DNA of 34,561 nucleotides, from the NCBI GenBank assembly GCA_947039395.1, contig CAMQYS010000021.1, forward strand, positions 1 to 34,561, in the 5' to 3' direction. The translations under genes and the position numbers were made by a program. This document shows, piece by piece, positions 22,365 to 34,561 of the stretch. Below the pieces are notes generated by a model. The model searched no databases. It was not told the origin of the DNA and was given only the letters and a program-made list of their open reading frames with translations. Source of the DNA: an uncultured Deferribacteraceae bacterium (GTDB taxonomy: Bacteria; Chrysiogenota; Deferribacteres; Deferribacterales; Mucispirillaceae). Each line of letters opens with the position of its first letter. Within the stretch, counting starts at the first letter, position 1.

Positions 22365-22424
22365 TTTTAAATCTACTTTTCTAATACAATTAAATTTTAA
22401 ATCTATTTTTCAAATACAACTATA
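22365..22424 (-). repeat. 30-bp imperfect tandem duplication over the encapsulin stop codon
   Basis: Positions 22365-22394 and 22395-22424 agree at 26 of 30 bases. The second copy is the coding end of the encapsulin gene with its TAG; the first repeats it downstream in the same frame and with its own TAG. The last codons (VFEK-stop) therefore reappear as VLEK-stop ten codons later, behind the first stop. Confidence 0.8.
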
Positions 22425-23215
22425 GCTTCTGGTTTCTTAATTCTTGGAAGAACCGTCTCTATAATACGGAATGAATGATTTAAATCTTTCTGTTCTAAAT
22501 ATGCTGTAACTATATCTTGTCCTATAGCTAGATCAACATATTGAGGCTCTGAACAGATAAGAACAGCTTGTTGTCCTTTTAATATAGGAACTCTAAATAA
22601 ACCAGCTAGCTGTTTAGAAACTCTATCAACCTCTAATAATCCTGTGCCTGCTTGTATTCTTTGAAGATTAACATATAACTCTGGACTAACACATAGAAAG
22701 AAATGACCTATCAATCCTTTACTGATAATCATGTTAACGCCTTTAACAATATCCATAAATGCGTTTTCGCCTTCTTTCCAATCAGAGATAGCAATTTTTT
22801 GAACACCCGGAGCATTCATTATTCCATCAGTTTTTAAAAACTTGTTACCAAAAAATATCAACGTATCTTCAAGATTAGTAATATTATGCGTTGCCTCAAT
22901 TACCGAAGTTAAATCAAGTGGCAAACCTGTTGCAAAATGATTTTCTATATCTCTCCATAATATATTAAAATCTGCATATATCTGTGGAAGTTCTACAAAT
23001 GTCCTTCCTGTTGTTTTTACTACTCCGTTCTCAAACTCTTCATTTCTAACCATTTTATCGTATGAAACATTAATAGCTCCTGAACCTAAAGGTCCGTAAA
23101 CTGTTAAAAATTTTCTACCATTTAGATGGTTTCTAGCTGTCTCCACTACAATCGAATCAATCTGTTTCCAGAAATCTTTCTTTATAGGAGCGCCTTCCCT
23201 TGAAAGGTAATCCAT
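22403..23215 (-). CDS. Family 1 encapsulin shell protein
   Basis: The HK97-fold protein that self-assembles into a hollow protein nanocompartment. The 270 residues match the usual length of small-shell (T=1-type) encapsulins. Characteristic features are the N-terminal helix MDYLSREGAPIKKDFWKQID that in this family binds cargo peptides, RKFLTVYGPLG (about 35-45), PQIYADFNILWRDIE, and the closing RIIETVLPRIKKPEAIVVFEK. AGGAGGAGAG precedes the ATG, one of the strongest ribosome binding sites of the window, fitting high expression of a shell subunit. The gene directly upstream encodes a ferritin-like protein with a cargo-loading tail, so the compartment probably stores or detoxifies iron. The linocin/bacteriocin label sometimes used for this family would be misleading. 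Confidence 0.95.
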   Translation of the reverse strand: MDYLSREGAPIKKDFWKQIDSIVVETARNHLNGRKFLTVYGPLGSGAINVSYDKMVRNEEFENGVVKTTGRTFVELPQIYADFNILWRDIENHFATGLPLDLTSVIEATHNITNLEDTLIFFGNKFLKTDGIMNAPGVQKIAISDWKEGENAFMDIVKGVNMIISKGLIGHFFLCVSPELYVNLQRIQAGTGLLEVDRVSKQLAGLFRVPILKGQQAVLICSEPQYVDLAIGQDIVTAYLEQKDLNHSFRIIETVLPRIKKPEAIVVFEK

Positions 23216-23229
23216 AATATTCTCTCCTC

Positions 23230-23685
23230 CTATTTTTTAATCAAACTACCTACTGTTAGGTTACTATCCACTACAGATTTATCCTCTGACTTACTATCTA
23301 CTTCATGAGTACAATCTGCTTCCCCGCCACAACAAGATGACTCATCACAAGGTGATATTAGCTTACTTGGAATACTTCCTGATTTAATACCTAAATCTTC
23401 CATCATCTCTCTTACTTCTGATTCTCCACCAGCAAAAAATTCTGCTTCTTTAGGATCAAGATAACGAAGTAAAGTTGTTAACTCACCAACATGAGCTTTC
23501 TCTTCATCTCTTATATCTCCTAAAACAGTTTTTACTACTATATCATCTGTTGCAAGAATATGTGCTTCATATAAATATATAGCCTCTAACTCTGCTGCTA
23601 TATCAAGTCTAATAGCCTGTATTAGCTCTTCTTTAGTAATCTTACGATTAACATTACCTGCGAATGGATTTGCAAAACTTGCCAT
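23230..23685 (-). CDS. Encapsulin cargo: ferritin-like protein with C-terminal targeting peptide
   Basis: A 151-residue ferritin-like protein expected to oxidise and deliver iron inside the encapsulin shell. Two helices carry AAELEAIYLYEAH and RDEEKAHVGEL. E32, Y39, E62 and H65 fall on the positions of the ferroxidase residues of encapsulated ferritins (EncFtn). The protein ends LTVGSLIKK, closely matching the LTVGSL-type encapsulation peptide. Between the ferritin part and this tail lies an unusual Cys-rich linker with C113, C118, C119, C125 and H127. GGAGG lies 6 bases before the ATG, and a good promoter stands in the 72-base gap upstream. The encapsulin gene follows after 14 bases. Related labels in databases may be ferritin or rubrerythrin family; the tail decides the cargo role. 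Confidence 0.92.
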   Translation of the reverse strand: MASFANPFAGNVNRKITKEELIQAIRLDIAAELEAIYLYEAHILATDDIVVKTVLGDIRDEEKAHVGELTTLLRYLDPKEAEFFAGGESEVREMMEDLGIKSGSIPSKLISPCDESSCCGGEADCTHEVDSKSEDKSVVDSNLTVGSLIKK

Positions 23686-23723
23686 TATTAACCTCCAATA
23701 AATTTATTATCGTACCACTTATA

Positions 23724-23752
23724 ATTATACACAATCAATCAGTAAATTAAAA
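23724..23752 (-). promoter_or_regulatory. Candidate promoter of the ferritin-encapsulin operon
   Basis: On the minus strand a perfect TATAAT (23724-23729) lies 17 bases after TTTTAA (23747-23752), about 38 bases before the cargo gene start. The msrAB stop is only 6 bases further up, so the promoter would make ferritin-encapsulin independent of the Msr genes. No Fur-box-like 19-bp dyad is obvious. Confidence 0.5.
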
Positions 23753-23757
23753 CAGAT

Positions 23758-24912
23758 TTATTCTGATAACTGATTTAATAAATATCCGTACCCCTCTGAT
23801 ACCATTTTAGATTTTGGAACAAACCTTAACGATGCACTATTAATACAGTATCGCATACCACCTCTATCTTTAGGTCCATCATCAAATAGATGCCCTAAAT
23901 GTGAGTTACTACTGCTACTTTTTACCTCTGTTCTCTCCATACTAAAACTATCATCCATACTATTTTTTATTAAATCTTTATTAATCGGTTTTGAAAATGA
24001 TGGCCAACCTGATGATGAGTTAAATTTATCCTTAGATAAAAATAAAGGCTCTCCTGTAGTTATATCAACATATATTCCTTCTTCTTTATTATCCCAATAC
24101 TCATTATCAAATGGACGCTCTGTCTTATTATTTTGTGTAACATCATACTGCAACTTTGTTAATTTAGATTTTAACTCTTCATCACTAGGCACAGTATACT
24201 TCTTTATTGTAAAATTAGAAACTTCATCTTTATCTATATTAGAACTTACATTATCTTTAGCATTTTTTGCATCTTCAAACTCTGCTTTACCTATATGACA
24301 ATATCCATTAGGATTTTTATCTAAATAATCTTGATGATAATCCTCTGCTTTATGATAATTATTGACTGGCATTACTTCAATAGCTATAGAATCTTTATAA
24401 TCTTTTGAAATCTTCTTTATAAATTTTTCTGTGATTTTTTTCTCTCTATCGCTATCATAATAAATACCTGTGCGATATTGACGTCCTACATCGTTACCTT
24501 GTTTATTAAGCGATGTCGGATCTATAACTTTTATATACATACCCAGTATAAAATCTAGCGATACTACTTTAGGATCATAAACTATCCTAACACCTTCAGA
24601 TGCATCAGATGTTCCTGATGTAACATCTTTATAAGTTGGATTAGCTGTTTTAGAATTAACATATCCAACATCTGTAAAAACAACACCATCTATATATTGA
24701 AAATATTTTTCAACACCCCAAAAACATCCACCTGCTAATATAATAGTATCATATTTATCAGTAGAAAAATCTTCGTATTTCATATCTTTATTTACCAACG
24801 CAATATATTCTAACTCACTCTTTATATCTTTTGCTAAACTACTACTATCTCGCTTGCATGAGATAGTTAGAGATAAGAATATCCCTAACATTAATACATA
24901 TATGATCTTCAT
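23758..24912 (-). CDS. msrAB: Peptide methionine sulfoxide reductase MsrA-MsrB fusion, lipoprotein
   Basis: A bifunctional enzyme reducing both S- and R-methionine sulfoxide in oxidised proteins, predicted to be anchored in the envelope. The N-terminus is a lipoprotein signal ending LTISC with lipid-bearing C19. The MsrA domain (about 52-215) has the catalytic C63 in GGCFWG. The MsrB domain (about 240-384) has WPSF with W303, HLGH with H338 and H341, and catalytic C356 in [20 protein letters not shown] shows the zinc-free MsrB type. The 384 residues are normal for a fusion with a signal peptide. An electron donor (DsbD-like) is not nearby. Upstream lies an obvious shortened paralog, msrB-like, and the ferritin-encapsulin operon is directly downstream, giving an oxidative-stress neighbourhood. 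Confidence 0.95.
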
Positions 24913-25092
24913 AATTATTTCTACCTTTATCTTTAATAGATATTTTATTATATTTTATATCAACAAATTATTACTACTATTTATTTAGCACTCTTACTCA
25001 TATTAATCTCATAACTATTAATAAGTGTATCTGAAAAACCATAAATATCTATTAAATAAAATATATAAATTAAATAAAGAATTGTAGTAGAT

Positions 25093-25680
25093 TTATTTTG
25101 AAACTTGATTTAATAAGTATCCATACCCATCTGCTTCCATGTCAGCTTTTGGAACAAACCTTAATGATGCACTATACATACAGTATCTTGTACCACCACT
25201 ATCTTTAGGCCCATCGTAATATAAATTTCCAAGATGTGAGTTAGTAGTGCTATTTTTTACATCTGTTTTATTTACACCATCTTTATTAGATAGAATATTT
25301 ATTACCATTTTTTTATCAATTGGTTTTGTAAATGATGGCCAACCTGTTCCTGAATCATATTTATCCTTAGATAAAAATAAAGGTTCTCCAGATATTGCAT
25401 CAACATATATACCTTCTGCTTTATTATCCCAATACTCATTTTCAAATGGAAGCTCTGACTTATTTTTTTGAGCAATATCATGCTGTAATTCTGTTAGTTT
25501 TGATTTTGTATTTTCATCACTCAACACAGGATACTTATTTGATACTGGAGAAGAACTTTCATTTACTAAAGCTGTATTTTCTGACTCATTTTTTATATCA
25601 CTAGCTAAGATACCATCTCGTTTACATGATATCACTAGAGATACACATATCACTAATATTAATACATATACTTTCTTCAT
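25093..25680 (-). CDS. MsrB-like lipoprotein, shortened tandem duplicate of msrAB with altered active-site signature
   Basis: A 195-residue lipoprotein with signal ending LVISC (C19). I start at the ATG at 25680 because GAGGAG lies 9 bases upstream; a TTG ten codons earlier (25710) is in frame but weaker. The mature start CKRD...DIK.E.E..ALVN repeats that of MsrAB, then the protein goes straight to the MsrB domain, so the MsrA domain has been lost from this copy (or gained in the other). The MsrB signature is altered: HLGN at 149-152 where MsrAB has HLGH, and C167 is kept in RYCMYSASL where the family has RYCINSASL (Asn to Tyr at 169). W114 and H149 remain. It may have weakened or changed activity. 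Confidence 0.9.
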   Translation of the reverse strand: MKKVYVLILVICVSLVISCKRDGILASDIKNESENTALVNESSSPVSNKYPVLSDENTKSKLTELQHDIAQKNKSELPFENEYWDNKAEGIYVDAISGEPLFLSKDKYDSGTGWPSFTKPIDKKMVINILSNKDGVNKTDVKNSTTNSHLGNLYYDGPKDSGGTRYCMYSASLRFVPKADMEADGYGYLLNQVSK

Positions 25681-25809
25681 AATTATTCTCTCCTCATACC
25701 TTAATAGCAATTTTATTATGTTCTTTATTAATAAATTTAAAGTGAAAATATCTTATAACTTCAGAATATATCCCCTATTAATTTTAAAAATAGTTAAAAT
25801 TTAAAACAA

Positions 25810-27495
25810 TTATCGAACACTCCCGTCCATATAAATATTACGACTATCAATAAATAGGTCTATATCCTTATTAATATTAATATTACTATTAACTAACTGA
25901 AATATACCTATATCTAAATTACTCTTAACCATCGGCAAACCATCTTCCGTACTTGGAGTTTTAGGCTCAAAGTAGTGATTCCATGATTGAGCAATGTTCA
26001 AACCTGCTGAACTGTTATACAGATAGTAAGCATAGCCATTAAAGATAGTAAAGCTTCCTATATTTGGATTTGATTTTATTGTTCCTTCATATGACTGAAA
26101 ACCATTTAAGGCAACATAATCTGTAATATTATCTCCAACTATTATACAATTATCATCTTCGCTCCACCCTGCACATGTAGTATATTCATTTTCATAATGA
26201 AACATGAAATATAACTCTTTCTTACTAACTCCTGCTATAGATACAAAATCTATATTATTATATACAGAGTAGCTTTTAATAACTCTCCATAAACCACTTT
26301 CATACACACTTATCTCTGAACCGATAGCCGTACTATAAATATAATATAAACTACCATCAATAATATCAACACTAAATGAAATAATCTCTAAATCTGTAGG
26401 AGGCTTAATAGTTATATAATCAGCTGATGAACTATCAATAAAATTATTAACTACAATTTTTAGTAACTTACTACTGTTATCTATATATGATGTTATCACC
26501 GTATCATTATCATAAATTTTTATAATAGGTTCTGAAACATTCCCTATCTTTACACCATTAAAGTAATCATTAAAACTAGTTACTACATCAAGACTTCCAT
26601 TATCTTTCTTATACATGCTTAGATTTGCATCTTGATCAACATATGCAACAAATATATCACGATCTTTATTTGTAGCAATTGTTGAATAGATAGCGTTACT
26701 ACCTAGACCGTTATCTTTTGTTAAAGTTCTCCCTTTAATCATATCTGAATTCATTTCATATACTTCTACTTTTTTATCATCTTTAATATATGTTAACGTT
26801 GCATTATCTCCAAATGGCGCAATACTATGATATCCTGTTGTTTTGAGATTACTTGATAGAGAATTGCTCATTTCAATCTCTTCACTTATCTTACGACTAC
26901 CAACTAAAGTATAACCTTTTATAAAACTCTTATTATCAATACTTTTAATTGTAGCTACTGAGTAACGAGCAGACTCTGTTGAGGTTATTGATAATCCTGT
27001 ACTATGAATATATTTATCATCAGATAATTGATCTATATCTTGAGAATTAAATCCTTTTAGTATCGTTGCCTTATTCTCTTCAGTAAATTTAATATCTAAT
27101 GGATCAAGGTAATATTCACCACCATTATAATATAACTCCATACCTACAGCTTGCTGATTATCATTCTCATCTAAAATTAATTCAACACCAAAATAATTAG
27201 AGTAAGTAAGAGATGCTTCATTAAAACCTAACGCATAGATCGCTCTTGTATAGCTATTTTCAATCCCACTTACATAATATCCAATAATTATCTTATTCCC
27301 AAATATACCCTTACCATATAATAATCCTGAAGGAAGCTCTACAGATACATCTCCTCCCAATACAACAAAATAACTATCCTTACTTGCAGCCAATAACCTA
27401 AATGTATCACCATAATCTTCCACACCACTATACGAACATGATATAGTAAATGTAAAAGTTACAAGCAGTATATATCTATATAATCGTTTAAACAC
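25810..27495 (-). CDS. Lipoprotein of unknown function with one copy of a shared ~75-residue module
   Basis: An exported lipoprotein of 561 residues with signal ending FTISC (C20). I start at the GTG at 27495 (MFKRLYRYILL) because GGAG stands 6 bases before it; an ATG four codons upstream (27507) lacks a ribosome binding site. About residues 55-126 resemble the module that is repeated in the protein at 29242-31470: a Gly turn, then ENSYTRAIYAL, YFGVELI, and MELYYNGGEYY. The rest (about 160-540) is rich in short beta-strand-like stretches such as YSTIATNKDRDIFVAYVDQD and SVDIIDGSLYYIYSTA, suggesting a propeller or similar beta fold. No enzyme motif is seen. Possible roles are surface binding or structural; no function is claimed. 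Confidence 0.8.
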   Translation of the reverse strand: MFKRLYRYILLVTFTFTISCSYSGVEDYGDTFRLLAASKDSYFVVLGGDVSVELPSGLLYGKGIFGNKIIIGYYVSGIENSYTRAIYALGFNEASLTYSNYFGVELILDENDNQQAVGMELYYNGGEYYLDPLDIKFTEENKATILKGFNSQDIDQLSDDKYIHSTGLSITSTESARYSVATIKSIDNKSFIKGYTLVGSRKISEEIEMSNSLSSNLKTTGYHSIAPFGDNATLTYIKDDKKVEVYEMNSDMIKGRTLTKDNGLGSNAIYSTIATNKDRDIFVAYVDQDANLSMYKKDNGSLDVVTSFNDYFNGVKIGNVSEPIIKIYDNDTVITSYIDNSSKLLKIVVNNFIDSSSADYITIKPPTDLEIISFSVDIIDGSLYYIYSTAIGSEISVYESGLWRVIKSYSVYNNIDFVSIAGVSKKELYFMFHYENEYTTCAGWSEDDNCIIVGDNITDYVALNGFQSYEGTIKSNPNIGSFTIFNGYAYYLYNSSAGLNIAQSWNHYFEPKTPSTEDGLPMVKSNLDIGIFQLVNSNININKDIDLFIDSRNIYMDGSVR

Positions 27496-27738
27496 AATTA
27501 TCTCCATACTTAAAATAAGTAAAACTAATCAATACAGTAACAATATAATAATTTAGATATTTTATAACAATAGATAAATTGTATATTTAAAAAAGTTATT
27601 ATATAGATATAAATACCTACCAACTACCAAATATAACTATTTACTCTCTTTAAAATAACAGATAATTTAAAATGTTTTGAATATAAAATACGTTTATTAA
27701 TAATACAACAGTAATAGCAAGATTAAGTTCATCAATAT

Positions 27739-29007
27739 TTAATACTGTTCTTCTCTACAACTTCCCATTAACTTCTCTATAATATCTTTATCATCTAATG
27801 TTAATATCCATCTTAACATAGGACATTTATCTTCTATCTTCCATATATTATTAAAATCCCATGCATCAAAATTACCCTTATATTGAAAGTCATTAGCATC
27901 TATTCCAAGTCCTGCATCCTCTGATCTAGGCTCGCCTACAGCCTCTAAACTCTTATCTTTTAAATAGAAGTTATTAGGTTTGCTATACCCACCTCCAAAT
28001 TCATTATCCTCTTTACCTATAAGTCTTCCAACACTGGTCACAGATGATGATGTATATAACAAACCATAATTATAGATATGAGATATATTAACCTCTTTTG
28101 CAACATAACCTACAACTCCTCCGATACCTGAACGACCTTCTAATTTCGCGATATTTGAAGAGTTATCTATTCTACCACCATTACTACTACCGATTAGCCC
28201 ACCGATAAATACCCCTTTCCATATCTGTCCATTATTATGTGAAAGCGATACCGATGAAGATCTATTATAACCTATAATACCACCTATACTTTCATCACCT
28301 GATAGTTTTCCATAATTAGCTGATTTAGTTATAGATGACTCTTTTGCATCACCTATAACTCCTCCAACCCATTTCTCTCCATTAACAGTACCACTGTTTA
28401 TTGCAAGCTCAACTGTGACATTATCTGTAAAACCACTAATACCTCCAATTGAACCTTCATATCCTTTAATTGAAACATTAATGTTTCTAACATTTGTTAT
28501 CTTTGCATTTCTACCACTTCCTGCTATTCCGCCTACTTTCTCTTCTCCACTAATTAAACCATTTTCTATAGTGATATTTTTTATAGTTCCATTATCAAGA
28601 AGTTCTCCGATTAAACCTACATCAGGAGATGCCCTTCGACTGATCTGTATATTAAAAATAGTTTTATTACTACCATCTAAAGTACCTTGAAACTTTCTTA
28701 TGCCTTGTATACTTTTATTATCCATATCAATATCATTAACAAGGATAATCGTATCATTATCATAAACTATAGAAGTATTATCATTTGTTCTTTTCATGAT
28801 CCATGCAAAATGAGTCGCATCAGTAATATAATATGTTCTAGTGTCTAAATTATATTTAGGAGCATTAATCGTTGTACCGTCCCAAGGTCTAGATATAATA
28901 TCACCTGTATTATCTCCTGTATCTCGATCAGAATCATCCATACCAAACCAACCACACGATATTAATAGAAATGATAAACTTAAAATAATAAATTTTATAT
29001 ACAACAT
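27739..29007 (-). CDS. GLUG-repeat lipoprotein, probable surface beta-solenoid
   Basis: A 422-residue exported lipoprotein with signal ending LLISC (C18). The start is the ATG at 29007, with GGAG 5 bases upstream; an earlier in-frame start (29040) would add eleven unneeded residues before the signal. Residues about 130-332 consist of at least seven GLUG-type repeats of roughly 27 residues, each opening [VI]GGI[IAS]G and closing with an N-x-G turn (for example VGGVIGDAKESS, IGGIIGYNRSSS, IGGLIGSSNGGR). The GLUG family is known from adhesins and surface proteins of the beta-helix type. The C-terminus has CPMLRW, typical of the end of such proteins. It does not carry the module of the neighbouring lipoproteins. 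Likely a cell-surface or adhesion protein. Confidence 0.9.
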   Translation of the reverse strand: MLYIKFIILSLSFLLISCGWFGMDDSDRDTGDNTGDIISRPWDGTTINAPKYNLDTRTYYITDATHFAWIMKRTNDNTSIVYDNDTIILVNDIDMDNKSIQGIRKFQGTLDGSNKTIFNIQISRRASPDVGLIGELLDNGTIKNITIENGLISGEEKVGGIAGSGRNAKITNVRNINVSIKGYEGSIGGISGFTDNVTVELAINSGTVNGEKWVGGVIGDAKESSITKSANYGKLSGDESIGGIIGYNRSSSVSLSHNNGQIWKGVFIGGLIGSSNGGRIDNSSNIAKLEGRSGIGGVVGYVAKEVNISHIYNYGLLYTSSSVTSVGRLIGKEDNEFGGGYSKPNNFYLKDKSLEAVGEPRSEDAGLGIDANDFQYKGNFDAWDFNNIWKIEDKCPMLRWILTLDDKDIIEKLMGSCREEQY

Positions 29008-29101
29008 TAATTCTCCATAAGTCTCTTGCTCTAGTAACATTCTAAAATGATACTGTAATCATACTTACAAACACATAATTAAAATTCTTCTAAATAATAA
29101 A

Positions 29102-29241: not shown

Positions 29242-31470
29242 TTAAGGTATTGTAGGTAATGGAAATACACCCTTATATTTCATATTAATCTTAACAACCT
29301 CAAGCTTATTGTCTTCTGAAAGATATGTTATATATATATATCCAGTAGGTAAAACATTACCTGCATTAACAAGATCAGATTTAATAGAACTATCTACTAT
29401 CGTTACACCAGCAATCACTTTAGTATTATGTATATCAATTTGAGTACTTGTATTCTTGCCATCTCCAAAAAGTGCTAACCCACTATACTTACCCTTTTTG
29501 ATCCTTAAAGGAGTTATAACTAACTTAGAATCTTTTCTATATAAAAAGTAAATACTTTCTCCCTCTGATATAAGTTGTATATCTTCTACCGCACCTATAC
29601 CTGTTATGCTAGGCAATCTCTGTTTTGTCCATTTTCTATTACTACTATTAAACACATATATATATGTGTTACTATTCTCTGTAACAGCTGCATATATGTT
29701 GTTTTCTGCATAAACTACTGAAATATTACCACCAGTGGTAGGCAGTCCAGTACCTGTTATATCTGTAGACACCCCACTAAAAGAAGTAACGAACACTTTA
29801 GCTGTTGTACCGTTTAAACCAGCTGTAATAATTTCATTTTTCCCTACAGTAGCTGATTTAATATTAAACAGCGGGTATGATGAGTCAACATCTGAGATAG
29901 TACCCTCAATTATTTTTTTCATTTGAGTATTACTACCGTTACTACTTGCAATATAAATAATATCATTAGCAGCAACAGTTACTAAGCCAGTTGGTGCAGC
30001 TCTCTCATCTCTATCTTCATTTATATAACTACTATCATTAGAGTGTAAAGGAGATAAGCCCAGTCTTAATTTTAATACCTCTACATTTCCACTACCATTA
30101 ATAACTGTAGCAAATATATATTTGCCGATAGATTGTAATGATGAACTTACAACCTTATAATTATAATTTAATGATGAATCCCACGCTGGATTATCAGAGG
30201 TACCTATTGTATATGAAAGAAGCGAATTATTACCTGTTTGAGAAAGAACATAAGTTATATTGTCTGCTATAAGAGTTGAAATCTTTGTGTCCGTAGTAGG
30301 AAGTTTACTACTATCAGCAGTAATAACTTTAGGAGTATTCTGTTCCATTCTAACTAACCATGTTGCTAACATTGAAACATCGTTATCAACATGTTTAACA
30401 TCATTTTTATTATCCCAAAACTTCGCAATACCATTATTATTTTTAAAATATATCTCTAGCTCTTTATCATCAAAAGTTGTTCCAACTACCTTAATACCAA
30501 CAAATTTTCCTGAATTAACTTCCTGATATACAGCTTGAGTACTATCATTATAATCTGGTTGAGAGTGATATGTAAATAATTCTTTCGTATCCGTAGAGTT
30601 CATAATTGTTCCATTATAGTGAATATTAGCTCCTTTATCATCTAAGGCAAATTTGTATCCAAATTTTATAGCATGATCTATAAACGTCTTTGGAAATACA
30701 TTCGCATTGGATCTATCATCATCAAAATGAATCGCTTTATTCGTCCAAAATAATGACTCATCATCTTTACCATTGTTTTTATTGAAATAAAATTTTATAT
30801 CCTTATTATCTCCAATACCAATAATTTCGACACCTAAATAATTATCACCTTCAGCTTTATAAACTGATCTGTTTTTTTCAAAAGTTATGGGGGTGCTATC
30901 ATAATCAAAAATCATAACGCTCTCATCATGATAATAAACAATAGATCCTGATTGTAATAGATTAATATAAGAATCATCTTTAGGATAAACATATTTTGTT
31001 TTTGGTGCTAATTCAAAAAATGTTAGCTGATATATAGAGATATTATCCTGAATTGCATATTTAAGATTAGCATCATCTTTATCACTCCAATAAAAACCAC
31101 CACTACTTTCTCCATCTAAATAAAAGTTTAAAGTTTTATTTTTTCCCGTTCCAACAACATGAACAATAAAAAATTTATCATAAAGATCTCTTGGAAGCCT
31201 TGCATTATAAATCGCTCTAGAGTTATCATTACCAAACTGCTCAACATATTTATATACCTGAAACGTGTTATCATGGGACATTATAGAACCATTATCAACT
31301 AAATGGAGTACTGTATCATTAAATAATGGTGAACGATAATTATTCATCGCTGCAAACTTAGTAAAATTGTCAAATGATGCTGGACCTAAAAACTCTTCCT
31401 CCGCACAGGATATTAAAAAAAAGATGGTAATTAATCCCAATATTTTTATTTTATTAAATCGCTTAAACAT
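29242..31470 (-). CDS. Large lipoprotein with three tandem copies of an unrecognised module
   Basis: A 742-residue exported lipoprotein with signal ending FFLISC (C22). The N-terminal half holds three copies of a module of about 75 residues at roughly 57-130, 171-245 and 279-355. Each has a Gly turn (NGSI, SGSI, NGTI), a segment ending S-x-[AV]-[IV]-Y, a strand with V-x-[IV]-[IV]-G-x-G (VVGTG, IIGIG, VVGTT), and an end with L-x-FY followed by [FY]W. Residues about 390-742 are collinear with the C-terminal halves of the lipoprotein at 31760-33283 (shared ITGTGLPTT, at 571-579 here) and of the right-edge gene, and end near FPLP. The C-terminal half looks like a beta-propeller by its repeated strand-turn pattern. 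No function is recognised; a surface role is inferred from the lipid anchor and repeats. Confidence 0.85.
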   Translation of the reverse strand: MFKRFNKIKILGLITIFFLISCAEEEFLGPASFDNFTKFAAMNNYRSPLFNDTVLHLVDNGSIMSHDNTFQVYKYVEQFGNDNSRAIYNARLPRDLYDKFFIVHVVGTGKNKTLNFYLDGESSGGFYWSDKDDANLKYAIQDNISIYQLTFFELAPKTKYVYPKDDSYINLLQSGSIVYYHDESVMIFDYDSTPITFEKNRSVYKAEGDNYLGVEIIGIGDNKDIKFYFNKNNGKDDESLFWTNKAIHFDDDRSNANVFPKTFIDHAIKFGYKFALDDKGANIHYNGTIMNSTDTKELFTYHSQPDYNDSTQAVYQEVNSGKFVGIKVVGTTFDDKELEIYFKNNNGIAKFWDNKNDVKHVDNDVSMLATWLVRMEQNTPKVITADSSKLPTTDTKISTLIADNITYVLSQTGNNSLLSYTIGTSDNPAWDSSLNYNYKVVSSSLQSIGKYIFATVINGSGNVEVLKLRLGLSPLHSNDSSYINEDRDERAAPTGLVTVAANDIIYIASSNGSNTQMKKIIEGTISDVDSSYPLFNIKSATVGKNEIITAGLNGTTAKVFVTSFSGVSTDITGTGLPTTGGNISVVYAENNIYAAVTENSNTYIYVFNSSNRKWTKQRLPSITGIGAVEDIQLISEGESIYFLYRKDSKLVITPLRIKKGKYSGLALFGDGKNTSTQIDIHNTKVIAGVTIVDSSIKSDLVNAGNVLPTGYIYITYLSEDNKLEVVKINMKYKGVFPLPTIP

Positions 31471-31664
31471 AGCTCTTCTCTCTTTAATATAGATATATTA
31501 TTTCAAAACCTAAAAGTAGATTTCTCATTTCATGTAACAATATAATTCAATGATACGCTAATGTCAAAAAAAATATAGATTATTTGAATATATATCCACT
31601 ATAAGATATTTGTTAATAATGATATTCTTATGAAATATGTTTAAATATAAAGGGGAAAGAGGTG

Positions 31665-31725
31665 TAATAGTTAATAAATATAATATAAACACCAAAATAT
31701 ATTATATCTTATTTATTAACTATTA
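31665..31725 (-). terminator. 16-bp perfect inverted repeat after the lipoprotein gene at 31760
   Basis: TAATAGTTAATAAATA (31665-31680) and TATTTATTAACTATTA (31710-31725) are exact reverse complements. The inner sequences TAATATA and TATATTA pair again past a small bulge. It begins about 35 bases after the lipoprotein stop. No T tract follows, so termination or transcript stabilisation are both possible. Confidence 0.6.
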
Positions 31726-31759
31726 TTAAATATCAATACAATTCTAATCTAATCAACAG

Positions 31760-33283
31760 CTATGGTAGCGGAAATGGAGAACTATATATATAAAATGAAC
31801 TATTTTGAATAGAGGGACTAATTCCAGTAACATATGTAAATAATAAACCTCCATTAACAATAGGAGATATACCCGGAATTACCCCACTAATTGTCCAATC
31901 TGGACCTTGATTATCTGCATTGTTAATCATATCCTTTAGATCTCCATTATCTAAAATACTATAACCTCTAAATGAAAGTTTAGTAACGCTATTATATGTG
32001 CATAAAATATATAATATATCATCATGAGACACAGTATAGACTGTATCAACTAAGACTGTTGATAAATCTGATAATGACTGTTCTACCCACTTATAATTTG
32101 ATGTGCCTTCTAACATATATTTATATGCAGACACTTTATCTGTTGTTGCAACAACTGCGTATAAATAATTATTATATGAAGCTAACTTAATACTATTAAC
32201 ATTTGTTGTTGGCAATCCTGTTCCTGTTATATTAGTATTGCTACTATCACTTATAGATAAAATAATTGGAGCACCACTATTTATACCACTAATTGCAACA
32301 TCGTTACTACCTCTATAAACAACTGAATTAACGATAAATCTATCAGATAAAGTGATATCTGTTTGGGTGTTCATATTTCTAGTATAAAATTTTGTATCAT
32401 TATTTTTATCTGTTGTAGCGATATAAATATTTGTTCCATCTGTATCAACTGCAAAAGCAGATACATTATCTGTACCTTTCACTATACCTAAATCTTTACC
32501 GAAAATATCAGTCCTATTATCAGCTACATCATACTTCAATGTTGTAAGAATACCGTTATCTAGTGCAGCAGTTATAACTATATCATCTCCTACTAATTGC
32601 AATGATGATCCAACTATATCTGTAATATTATCATCAACAACTGATATTTGAACACCAAACCATGAGGTAGATGTACCACCGATAAATAATGTAGCGTTAC
32701 TACCAAGAACTTTATTATCAGTTGCAAGTGTATATGCTATATCTCCATTCATTAATGTTGATAACGCTTTACCTGTCTTTGGTACTAAAGTAGAGTCTGA
32801 TGTAACAGAATCAAATGAAATATCAATCGTTCCCATTGATTTCCTAGTAGCTAAAATAGCATCTTTACCTTCTGTTAACGTAACATTATCAATAGACGAC
32901 CAAAAAGAAGCTACATTTGAATTATTATCTAAATAAAAGTCTAATGTTGATTCTGATCCTTCATTGATAACTGCAATACCCATAAACTCTTTATTATCAA
33001 CACCATTAACATAAACAGCTTGAGATGAATTATCACCTACTATATCTATATAAGCAAACTTAACTGTCTTATTATCAATATCTGTTATCGTTCCGTTATC
33101 ATGAAAATAAGCTAGCGTACCTATAGGCTCTGTAACAAGTTGATATGGTCTTCCTGATGCTTTATCTATAAACTCTGAAACTGGTTTAGTAATATTTGGC
33201 GTTTCATTACTCTTATCTACGCAAGCAACAGAAACAGTAATAATACTTACAACTAATAATAACTTACTCATTAATTTTAACAT
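31760..33283 (-). CDS. Lipoprotein paralog with one shared module and the common C-terminal half
   Basis: A 507-residue exported lipoprotein with signal ending TVSVAC (C21). The ATG at 33283 has AGGAG 9 bases upstream; the ATG four codons inside is less well placed. One copy of the shared module lies at about 55-130 (DNGTI, SSQAVY, FMGIAVI, LDFYLDN, ASFW). From about residue 167 it is collinear with the 742-residue neighbour: LVPKTGKALSTLMNGDIAYTL against its LPTTDTKISTLIADNITYVL, then ITGTGLPTT at 352-360, and a common end (SSPFPLP here, GVFPLP there). The spacing between these anchors is nearly equal in both (about 185 residues), so they are true paralogs and differ mainly in module number. 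Function is unknown. Confidence 0.85.
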   Translation of the reverse strand: MLKLMSKLLLVVSIITVSVACVDKSNETPNITKPVSEFIDKASGRPYQLVTEPIGTLAYFHDNGTITDIDNKTVKFAYIDIVGDNSSQAVYVNGVDNKEFMGIAVINEGSESTLDFYLDNNSNVASFWSSIDNVTLTEGKDAILATRKSMGTIDISFDSVTSDSTLVPKTGKALSTLMNGDIAYTLATDNKVLGSNATLFIGGTSTSWFGVQISVVDDNITDIVGSSLQLVGDDIVITAALDNGILTTLKYDVADNRTDIFGKDLGIVKGTDNVSAFAVDTDGTNIYIATTDKNNDTKFYTRNMNTQTDITLSDRFIVNSVVYRGSNDVAISGINSGAPIILSISDSSNTNITGTGLPTTNVNSIKLASYNNYLYAVVATTDKVSAYKYMLEGTSNYKWVEQSLSDLSTVLVDTVYTVSHDDILYILCTYNSVTKLSFRGYSILDNGDLKDMINNADNQGPDWTISGVIPGISPIVNGGLLFTYVTGISPSIQNSSFYIYSSPFPLP

Positions 33284-33461
33284 AGTAACTTTCTCCTTTT
33301 ATTAAATAATAACTATTTAAACATGTAATTTCTAAAAACTCTTACTGATTTAATTCATTCTAATTTAAAAATAAATGTAATATCAAAACTATAAATCTAA
33401 TATATTTTACCTACTCCGTACATAACAACTAATCTGTATTTTTATACATAGGATATAAATA

Positions 33462-33492
33462 AAGTGGATGAGTGCATTACACTCATCCACTT
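33462..33492 (-). terminator. 13-bp perfect hairpin after the right-edge lipoprotein-like gene
   Basis: AAGTGGATGAGTG (33462-33474) and CACTCATCCACTT (33480-33492) pair without mismatch around a 5-base loop, 51 bases after the stop at 33544. The stem is the most stable in this region; the flank on the minus strand is TATTTATAT, so it probably acts as a terminator for the leftward transcript. Confidence 0.7.
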
Positions 33493-33543
33493 ATATTTAT
33501 CATTACTAACTTTTAAAAAATTAGTAAAACTTAACCCTAAAAA

Positions 33544-34561
33544 TTACTCTGCAACTGGCATAGTAAATGGTGCATCAGATACTACTATATTATTATATCT
33601 GATAACATTCTTGCCATCTATGTTTTCAACATCGATAACAACTACTCCTAAATCGCTTCCTAAAGAAACTAACACTGGAGTAACATTAACTACATCTATA
33701 GCAACCTCGTCAACGATCTTAGTTAATACTGTACCTTCTAACGTATAAGCTGTTAATTCTAAACTAGTACCATTAGAAGCTCTTGATGTAACGTAAATAA
33801 ATTTATCATCAGCTACAATAGACTCAATATCCATTGGAAGTATCTCTCCAGTAACTAGTTCAGCTGTATTAGGAGAAAGTTTATACATCTCCTTTGTACC
33901 AGAATTATCAACTATTAAGTATAAACTATCATTCATATTTAACAACTTACCATTACTACGTGAATCAACACGAGAATATATTGATATCGGATCATAAGCT
34001 TGATGAACTACAACATGACCAACTTGAGTAGTGCTAGCGATAAAAACTTCTTTTCCAAGTTTAACTAAAGATGTAGGGTTACGACTAACACCAGGAGATC
34101 TGATATTATTCATAGACATACCTGAATCTGATATAGTTGTATATTTTCCAACTATACCGTCTTCTCCATTAAATGCAATAATTAACAAATTGTTATTATT
34201 TGCTGTAAGGGCAAATAACTGAGTTTTCATAGTACTAAAAAATCCATTTTTAGCTACTACTTGAATACCTTTATCATCAAATAGCTTAACTCTCTGATTA
34301 AACATTGATATTATATATATCTTTGACTTAATAGATTGTAATGAATTGGTTTCCATATCAACAACAGACTGTGTATCAACTTGTGAAGCGCTACCAATTA
34401 TACCTATATCATCAATTATTCCAGTAAATAATATACCTGGATTACCTGAGGTTTTATTATCTGCGGCTACATATATTTTATTGTTTTTATATAATGCAGA
34501 TAGAACACCAGATGTTGGTACTTGGTCGTCAATAGCTGTAATATTATCACTTGGTACTCTA
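33544..34561 (-). CDS. Lipoprotein-like paralog, partial: N-terminus beyond the window
   Basis: The frame stays open on the minus strand from the stop at 33544 to the last base, so at least 338 codons are present and the true start lies to the right; an internal ATG at 34356 is not the start. Near the edge, VPTSGVLSALYKNNKIYV and, about 60 residues on, NSLQSI match in order and spacing the corresponding region of the 742-residue protein (LPTTDTKISTL, then SSSLQSI). The end, APFTMPVAE, resembles the FPLP endings of the two paralogs. Strand-turn stretches such as DDKFIYVTSRA suggest the same beta fold. A lipoprotein signal cannot be seen but is expected from the family. Function is unknown. Confidence 0.8.
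   Translation of the reverse strand, partial: RVPSDNITAIDDQVPTSGVLSALYKNNKIYVAADNKTSGNPGILFTGIIDDIGIIGSASQVDTQSVVDMETNSLQSIKSKIYIISMFNQRVKLFDDKGIQVVAKNGFFSTMKTQLFALTANNNNLLIIAFNGEDGIVGKYTTISDSGMSMNNIRSPGVSRNPTSLVKLGKEVFIASTTQVGHVVVHQAYDPISIYSRVDSRSNGKLLNMNDSLYLIVDNSGTKEMYKLSPNTAELVTGEILPMDIESIVADDKFIYVTSRASNGTSLELTAYTLEGTVLTKIVDEVAIDVVNVTPVLVSLGSDLGVVVIDVENIDGKNVIRYNNIVVSDAPFTMPVAE

Follow-up and report, generated by a model that had tools for sequence, protein, structure and literature searches.

A tandem array of putative lipid-anchored proteins with predicted beta-propeller domains in one genus of Deferribacterota

Three neighbouring minus-strand genes at one end of a contig from an uncultured Deferribacteraceae bacterium, probably related to the gut bacterium Mucispirillum, share a set of sequence anchors. 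Do these genes belong to one family, and what might such a family do at the cell surface? A first-pass annotation had read them as tandemly duplicated, exported lipoproteins of no known family, diverging fast and adaptively. Tandem duplication, export as lipoproteins, fast evolution and the lack of a known family were upheld by the present analysis; adaptive divergence and surface exposure were not shown.

The locus and its genes

The window analysed comprises positions 1-34,561, which is the entire contig C21 of a genome of 2.11 Mb in 64 contigs. For comparison, the genus was represented by four species, all draft genomes (the source genome, G001, G002 and G003). The array is flanked by hrcA-grpE-dnaK on one side and by msrAB-encapsulin on the other. 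It is unbroken in the sister MAG G002 (contig CAMRCY010000002.1), where it starts with bipA, sir2, encapsulin, a ferritin-like gene, msrAB and a second Msr-type gene, continues with D, E (GLUG), an A-type gene, five three-module genes and two one-module genes, and ends with a 157-aa gene followed by hrcA-grpE-dnaK. In the source genome, the array is split over contigs C40 and C21. Contig C40, outside the window, carries dnaK-grpE-hrcA, two extra paralogues (F500 and G717) and a further gene of which 61 codons are present, its N-terminus being almost identical to that of G717. Contig C21 starts inside gene C, which is followed by B, A, E, D, msrAB and encapsulin in this order; over its first 54-55 bases, gene C shows no difference from G717. 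Because this synteny is shared with the sister genome, both contigs are placed next to each other in the genome, the contig break falling within the repeat formed by G717 and C. Additional family copies may lie in the gap.

The three minus-strand ORFs with shared anchors were confirmed. Gene A (29242..31470) encodes a 742 aa lipoprotein consisting of a lipobox, three N-terminal modules (31039..31377, 30700..31026 and 30361..30693; module profile E-values 1.6e-31, 3.5e-25 and 2e-30) and a C-terminal propeller-type domain (29245..30360), assigned by homology to B and by a held-out profile. Its orthologues are S2_A775 and S3_A769, and sequence inspection predicted a promoter upstream on the same strand (TTGACA-17-TATATT, 31539..31567). 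Gene B (31760..33283, minus strand) encodes a 507 aa lipoprotein with a lipobox, one module (32846..33184, E = 3e-31) and a C-terminal propeller-type domain. Of gene C (33544..34561, minus strand), 338 codons are present and the 5' part is missing at the contig end; the remaining piece is the propeller domain. A terminator-like hairpin, GTGGATGAG-TGTAATGCA-CTCATCCAC, is found 3' of gene C (33464..33490, minus strand). Since a hairpin terminator follows most family genes, they are probably transcribed singly.

Two more minus-strand genes of the array were examined. Gene D (25810..27507) encodes a 565 aa lipoprotein that is only distantly related to the family. Its single module (27064..27384) has diverged; it is matched by the module profile (E = 4e-6 and 7e-5) and, together with the signal peptide, by hhalign (probability 93, E = 3e-7). 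The C-terminal part of D gave no match. Gene E (27739..29040) encodes a 433 aa GLUG-type lipoprotein with weak GLUG and Peptidase_M26_N matches. It gave no match to the family and is not homologous to A-C, although it lies within the conserved array, is syntenic in G002 and G003 and is found in the array of three species; with a dN/dS of 0.38-0.58 it evolves as fast as the unrelated family. At the array edge, an encapsulin gene precedes the gene of a ferritin-like cargo candidate of 151 aa with a sub-threshold EncFtn-like match (all within 22403-25710). MsrAB (23758-24912) and a second SelR-type lipoprotein gene (25093-25710) adjoin this pair, and the encapsulin and Msr genes can be read as an oxidative-stress island.

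The lipobox that had been noticed in the two complete genes is present in both (FLIS in A and SVA in B, each directly before the Cys), as it is in all 26 available N-termini of the family, none of which has Asp at +2. We infer that the family is lipidated. An acidic residue at +3 occurs in 23 of the 26, compared to 10 of 41 other lipoprotein candidates in 850 kb of the same genome; this bias is a hint at an export signal only, as family members are not independent. In Bacteroidota, acidic motifs direct lipoproteins to the surface (SDDDD in Bacteroides fragilis), the types of this signal (LES) at +2 to +6 being K-(D/E)2, Q-A-(D/E)2 and S-D-D-D-D (PMC5080379). Some family N-termini are LES-like (CSDDDS, CADDKK, CSEDES, CAEEEF) and others are not (CVDKS, CTQEA, CGIGQ); the LES is not established in Deferribacterota. 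A profile of Slam (PF04575) gave no match in the genome, and likewise none in the control genomes. Based on the lipobox, the absence of Asp at +2 and the acidic +3, an outer-membrane and probably outward-facing placement is suggested.

Kinship, modules and predicted fold

By sequence, A, B and C are paralogues. The direct alignment of A and B is better than shuffled sequences (Smith-Waterman z = 23, 300 shuffles) and extends over 417 residues with E = 8e-19, which puts the homology of this pair beyond doubt. For B-C and A-C, direct alignments were marginal against 300 shuffles (z = 2.7 and z = 1.8), and their kinship was established through the intermediates F500 and G717 on contig C40, which connect them (C-F500 E = 4e-30, F500-B507 E = 5e-19, C-G717 E = 2e-132). 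A propeller profile built without the A-type sequences and B scored 68 bits for the C-terminal half of B (best of 200 shuffles 4.2) and 19 bits for that of A (best of 200 shuffles 7.5), a result which is strong for B and modest for A. In the reverse direction, a profile trained on A-type sequences and B only missed C, G and F and reached two intermediate groups. From the held-out, reverse-profile and intermediate results, the family reads as a chain of diverged paralogues; A and B are on long branches in the gene tree.

The anchors noticed earlier find their places on the predicted propeller. The [LV]PT entry segment (PTxGxLSxL) coincides with the strand that opens the propeller, which is strand a of blade A. 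In SLQ, L and Q do not vary within the family, and this segment makes up strand a of blade B. The stretch separating blades D and E holds ITGTGLPTT, which A and B share; four members of another cluster have the variant ITDLNLP[TA]T. The PFPLP-like or PFxMP ending of nearly every member forms the C-terminal tail.

The likeness had been placed in the C-terminal halves. It is not limited to them, as the N-terminal modules match their profiles more strongly than the propeller does; three tandem modules in A, one in B and the diverged one in D had not been noticed before, nor had the two paralogues on contig C40. The module is strand-rich, comprises about 112 residues (64 units aligned) and occurs once or three times per protein: B, F, 510, 511 and 514 have one, and A, G and the other members of 706-775 aa have three. 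When the whole proteins were compared with Pfam and NCBIfam, nothing was above cut-off. None of 26 single modules was above cut-off in Pfam, and the module profile gave no match in a PDB sequence search. The closest approach was PF21784 (4-fold beta flower), with sub-threshold matches (E = 0.15 and 0.016); membership was rejected, since 12.8 bits were obtained against a gathering cut-off of 25 and only 1 of the 26 modules matched. PDB sequence searches with B, C, the module and the family profile yielded no match accepted as homology. The only matches, of WD40 type, were weak, spanned about 40 residues and contained no stretch significant alone.

For the C-terminal domain of gene C, AlphaFold gave an all-strand model (pLDDT 86.6, pTM 0.85), which is predicted to be a seven-bladed beta-propeller with four strands per blade. 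Blades were assigned from DSSP strands, and the last blade is closed by the N-terminal strand. Foldseek returned 525 matches at E ≤ 1e-3; the best were all propellers (LGI1 EPTP, fungal and Photorhabdus lectins, WD40), with 6-15% identity and a TM of up to 0.60. A comparison of predicted folds had been proposed as a check on the kinship. It yielded a propeller for gene C, whereas the model of gene A, made from an alignment without its closest relatives, was too poor to judge (pLDDT 55), and its Foldseek matches (TM about 0.2) were dropped. Gene B is regarded as a propeller by homology only.

Distribution and evolution of the array

The module profile found the family in 4 of 385 genomes, all of one Deferribacterota genus (4 of 51 genomes in the phylum), and in none of the other 381, which include 11 of the same taxonomic family. 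The whole-family profile matched 4 of 100 genomes, all from the genus of the array, and phage, plasmid and viral contig collections gave no match. Within the genera searched, the protein family is therefore genus-restricted as judged by profile matches. In two genomes of the same taxonomic family, G004 and the Mucispirillum-like G005, unrelated genes take the place of the array upstream of hrcA; in G005 these include two enlarged flagellin genes in tandem, which are 769 and 787 aa long and very similar to each other (L069:2521-8706). In G001 (contig C61, L043:9801-12940), a cytosine-5 DNA methyltransferase-like gene lies between hrcA and the array. Next to it, a family gene is reduced to its C-terminal part, the only copy that looks broken; full-length intact copies are many across the four species.

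Tandem duplication was borne out by the sister genomes, in which copy number differs and orthologous groups are retained differentially. Four genes are reordered (714-706-723K-709 in G003, 723K-709-714-706 in G002), and both genomes also contain a small additional family cluster at another site. Some of the copies are lineage-specific. Elsewhere in the source genome, contig C2 carries three neighbouring minus-strand lipoprotein genes that resemble the GLUG-type gene E (436, 445 and 744 aa; L076:13080-18502) and are another candidate tandem cluster. On contig C16, seven consecutive lipoprotein candidates are ankyrin-repeat-like, and in most of them the lipobox Cys is followed by basic residues (L092:1314-13655). 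Several lipoprotein families seem to have been amplified in tandem in this genome.

Fast evolution was evident from the orthologues of A, D, E and F, which have a dN/dS of 0.34-0.69 and 52-67% identity between species. The neighbours dnaK, hrcA, dnaJ, trmFO, xerC, encapsulin and bipA have a dN/dS of 0.02-0.08 and msrAB of 0.2; dnaK, hrcA, encapsulin and others are 94-100% identical between species. Adaptive divergence found no backing, since orthologue pairs had a dN/dS of 0.27-0.74 and none exceeded 1. The overall value of 1.16 for C versus G was not taken as positive selection, because it comes from a replaced segment of about 50% identity in which dS is raised as well.

This segment makes the C/G717 pair a mosaic. 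Identities for blades A-G are 0.85/0.28/0.22/0.22/0.84/0.98/0.90, the divergent blades B-D covering 33961..34377 (minus strand) of gene C. On DNA level, 264 bases near the 3' end are identical and the middle has 51-57% identity. Variable sites agree in a run of up to 186, compared to 17 expected by permutation. The 3' edge is sharp, near residue 201 at the start of blade E, and the 5' edge is gradual, stretching from the end of blade A over blade B. Selection on point mutations is insufficient by itself, because dS is also raised in the middle; recombination accounts for the pattern, by which either the middle was replaced or the ends were homogenised. The best match of the middle of gene C is S1_716 (32%), a paralogue other than that of its ends, and a close donor was not found in the four genomes. 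Gene p304 of G001 displays the same mosaic pattern against G and C. Among close pairs, the B-D contrast was confined to the G/C/p304 group, being absent in the 712/714 and 709 orthologues. Across the main clade, blades B-D have a mean entropy of 1.75 bits versus 1.10 elsewhere (p = 1e-13). Concentration of variability on one propeller face was not supported (top versus bottom loops, p = 0.79).

Possible functions and known systems

With moderate confidence, we favour a tandem family, restricted to one genus, of proteins with a lipid anchor, stalk modules and a propeller head, which would bind ligands and whose array changes by duplication, loss and mosaic exchange. Each protein would be anchored by its lipobox and carry a stalk of one or three modules of about 112 residues, topped by a seven-bladed beta-propeller head. 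The array would grow and change by tandem duplication, gene reordering, differential loss and changes in module number, and after mosaic exchange, recent duplicates would still agree in blades A and E-G but differ in B-D. The propeller with its variable sector may bind host glycans or mucus, or other microbes, and the array would constitute a set of binding or antigenic surfaces. Owing to fold, anchoring, expansion and variable sector, binding of host, mucus or microbial ligands at the surface appears the most likely function. A single ligand pocket would predict variability concentrated on one face, which the data do not support. A more specific proposal is tentative and on the whole doubtful: blades B-D may be exchanged or replaced among paralogues near blade boundaries, with the rest and the stalk fixed, so that new surfaces arise. 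To our knowledge, there is no example of a propeller-based surface-diversification system in this gut lineage.

The propellers could also do without any ligand, if the array served as antigen or phage-receptor decoys and varied the surface under pressure from antibodies or phages. Weak constraint (dN/dS 0.3-0.7), the variable sector, the mosaic duplicates and the lineage-specific copies would fit, but phase-variation tracts were absent from the upstream regions inspected, most genes have their own terminator, the arrays inspected contain no silent partial cassettes, and orthologues are retained between species with a dN/dS below 1. We regard decoys as unlikely. A periplasmic location is rather improbable: a lipobox supports lipidation only, TolB is among the fold matches and a moderate dN/dS is compatible with relaxation, so that structural envelope lipoproteins similar to the BamB/TolB propellers might simply diverge under relaxed constraint after duplication. 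Many intact full-length copies kept in four species and the acidic +3 bias argue against this. Quite improbable is nutrient capture on a TonB-dependent transporter, in the manner of BtuG on BtuB or SusD on SusC. BtuG is indeed a seven-bladed propeller and a gut surface lipoprotein (PMC6143338), and the Bacteroides thetaiotaomicron lipoprotein BT1954 was at rank 25 of the fold matches. The genome, however, has two TonB plug domains (contigs C2 and C35) for at least five family members, neither adjoins the array, and PDB sequence searches gave no match to BtuG. Chance likeness between three unrelated lipoproteins, to which only the direct A-C score near that of shuffled sequences could point, is refuted by the held-out profile matches, the intermediates, the common modules and a coherent gene tree, and has next to no probability left.

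Returning to surface ligand binding, the family is present in all four species of the genus, the gut members of its phylum have received little study, and its module is a domain without known relative. Should the propellers bind at the surface, the array would be a main candidate for the recognition of host, mucus or neighbours by these bacteria, and the mosaic, limited to certain blades, would offer a natural experiment in how a propeller surface diversifies.

Among known systems, BtuG of Bacteroides (PDB 3DSM; BT1954) is similar in its lipobox, its seven-bladed beta-propeller and its origin from a gut bacterium. The array family differs by its additional tandem modules and its multi-copy tandem genes, and has neither a sequence match to BtuG nor an adjacent BtuB-type transporter; membership was rejected, as PDB sequence searches gave no match and the neighbourhood of the array contains no plug domain. 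Propeller lectins (Photorhabdus PLL/PHL, fungal AofleA) and LGI1 EPTP reach a TM of 0.48-0.59 at 9-12% identity to the gene C model; they have no detectable sequence homology with gene C, and the likeness is one of predicted fold. In Borrelia and mycoplasmas, tandem lipoprotein paralogues diverge fast, change in copy number and recombine among copies. Those proteins have another fold and belong to other phyla, and no switching device was seen in the array, which shares with them tandem paralogy, fast divergence, copy-number change and recombination.
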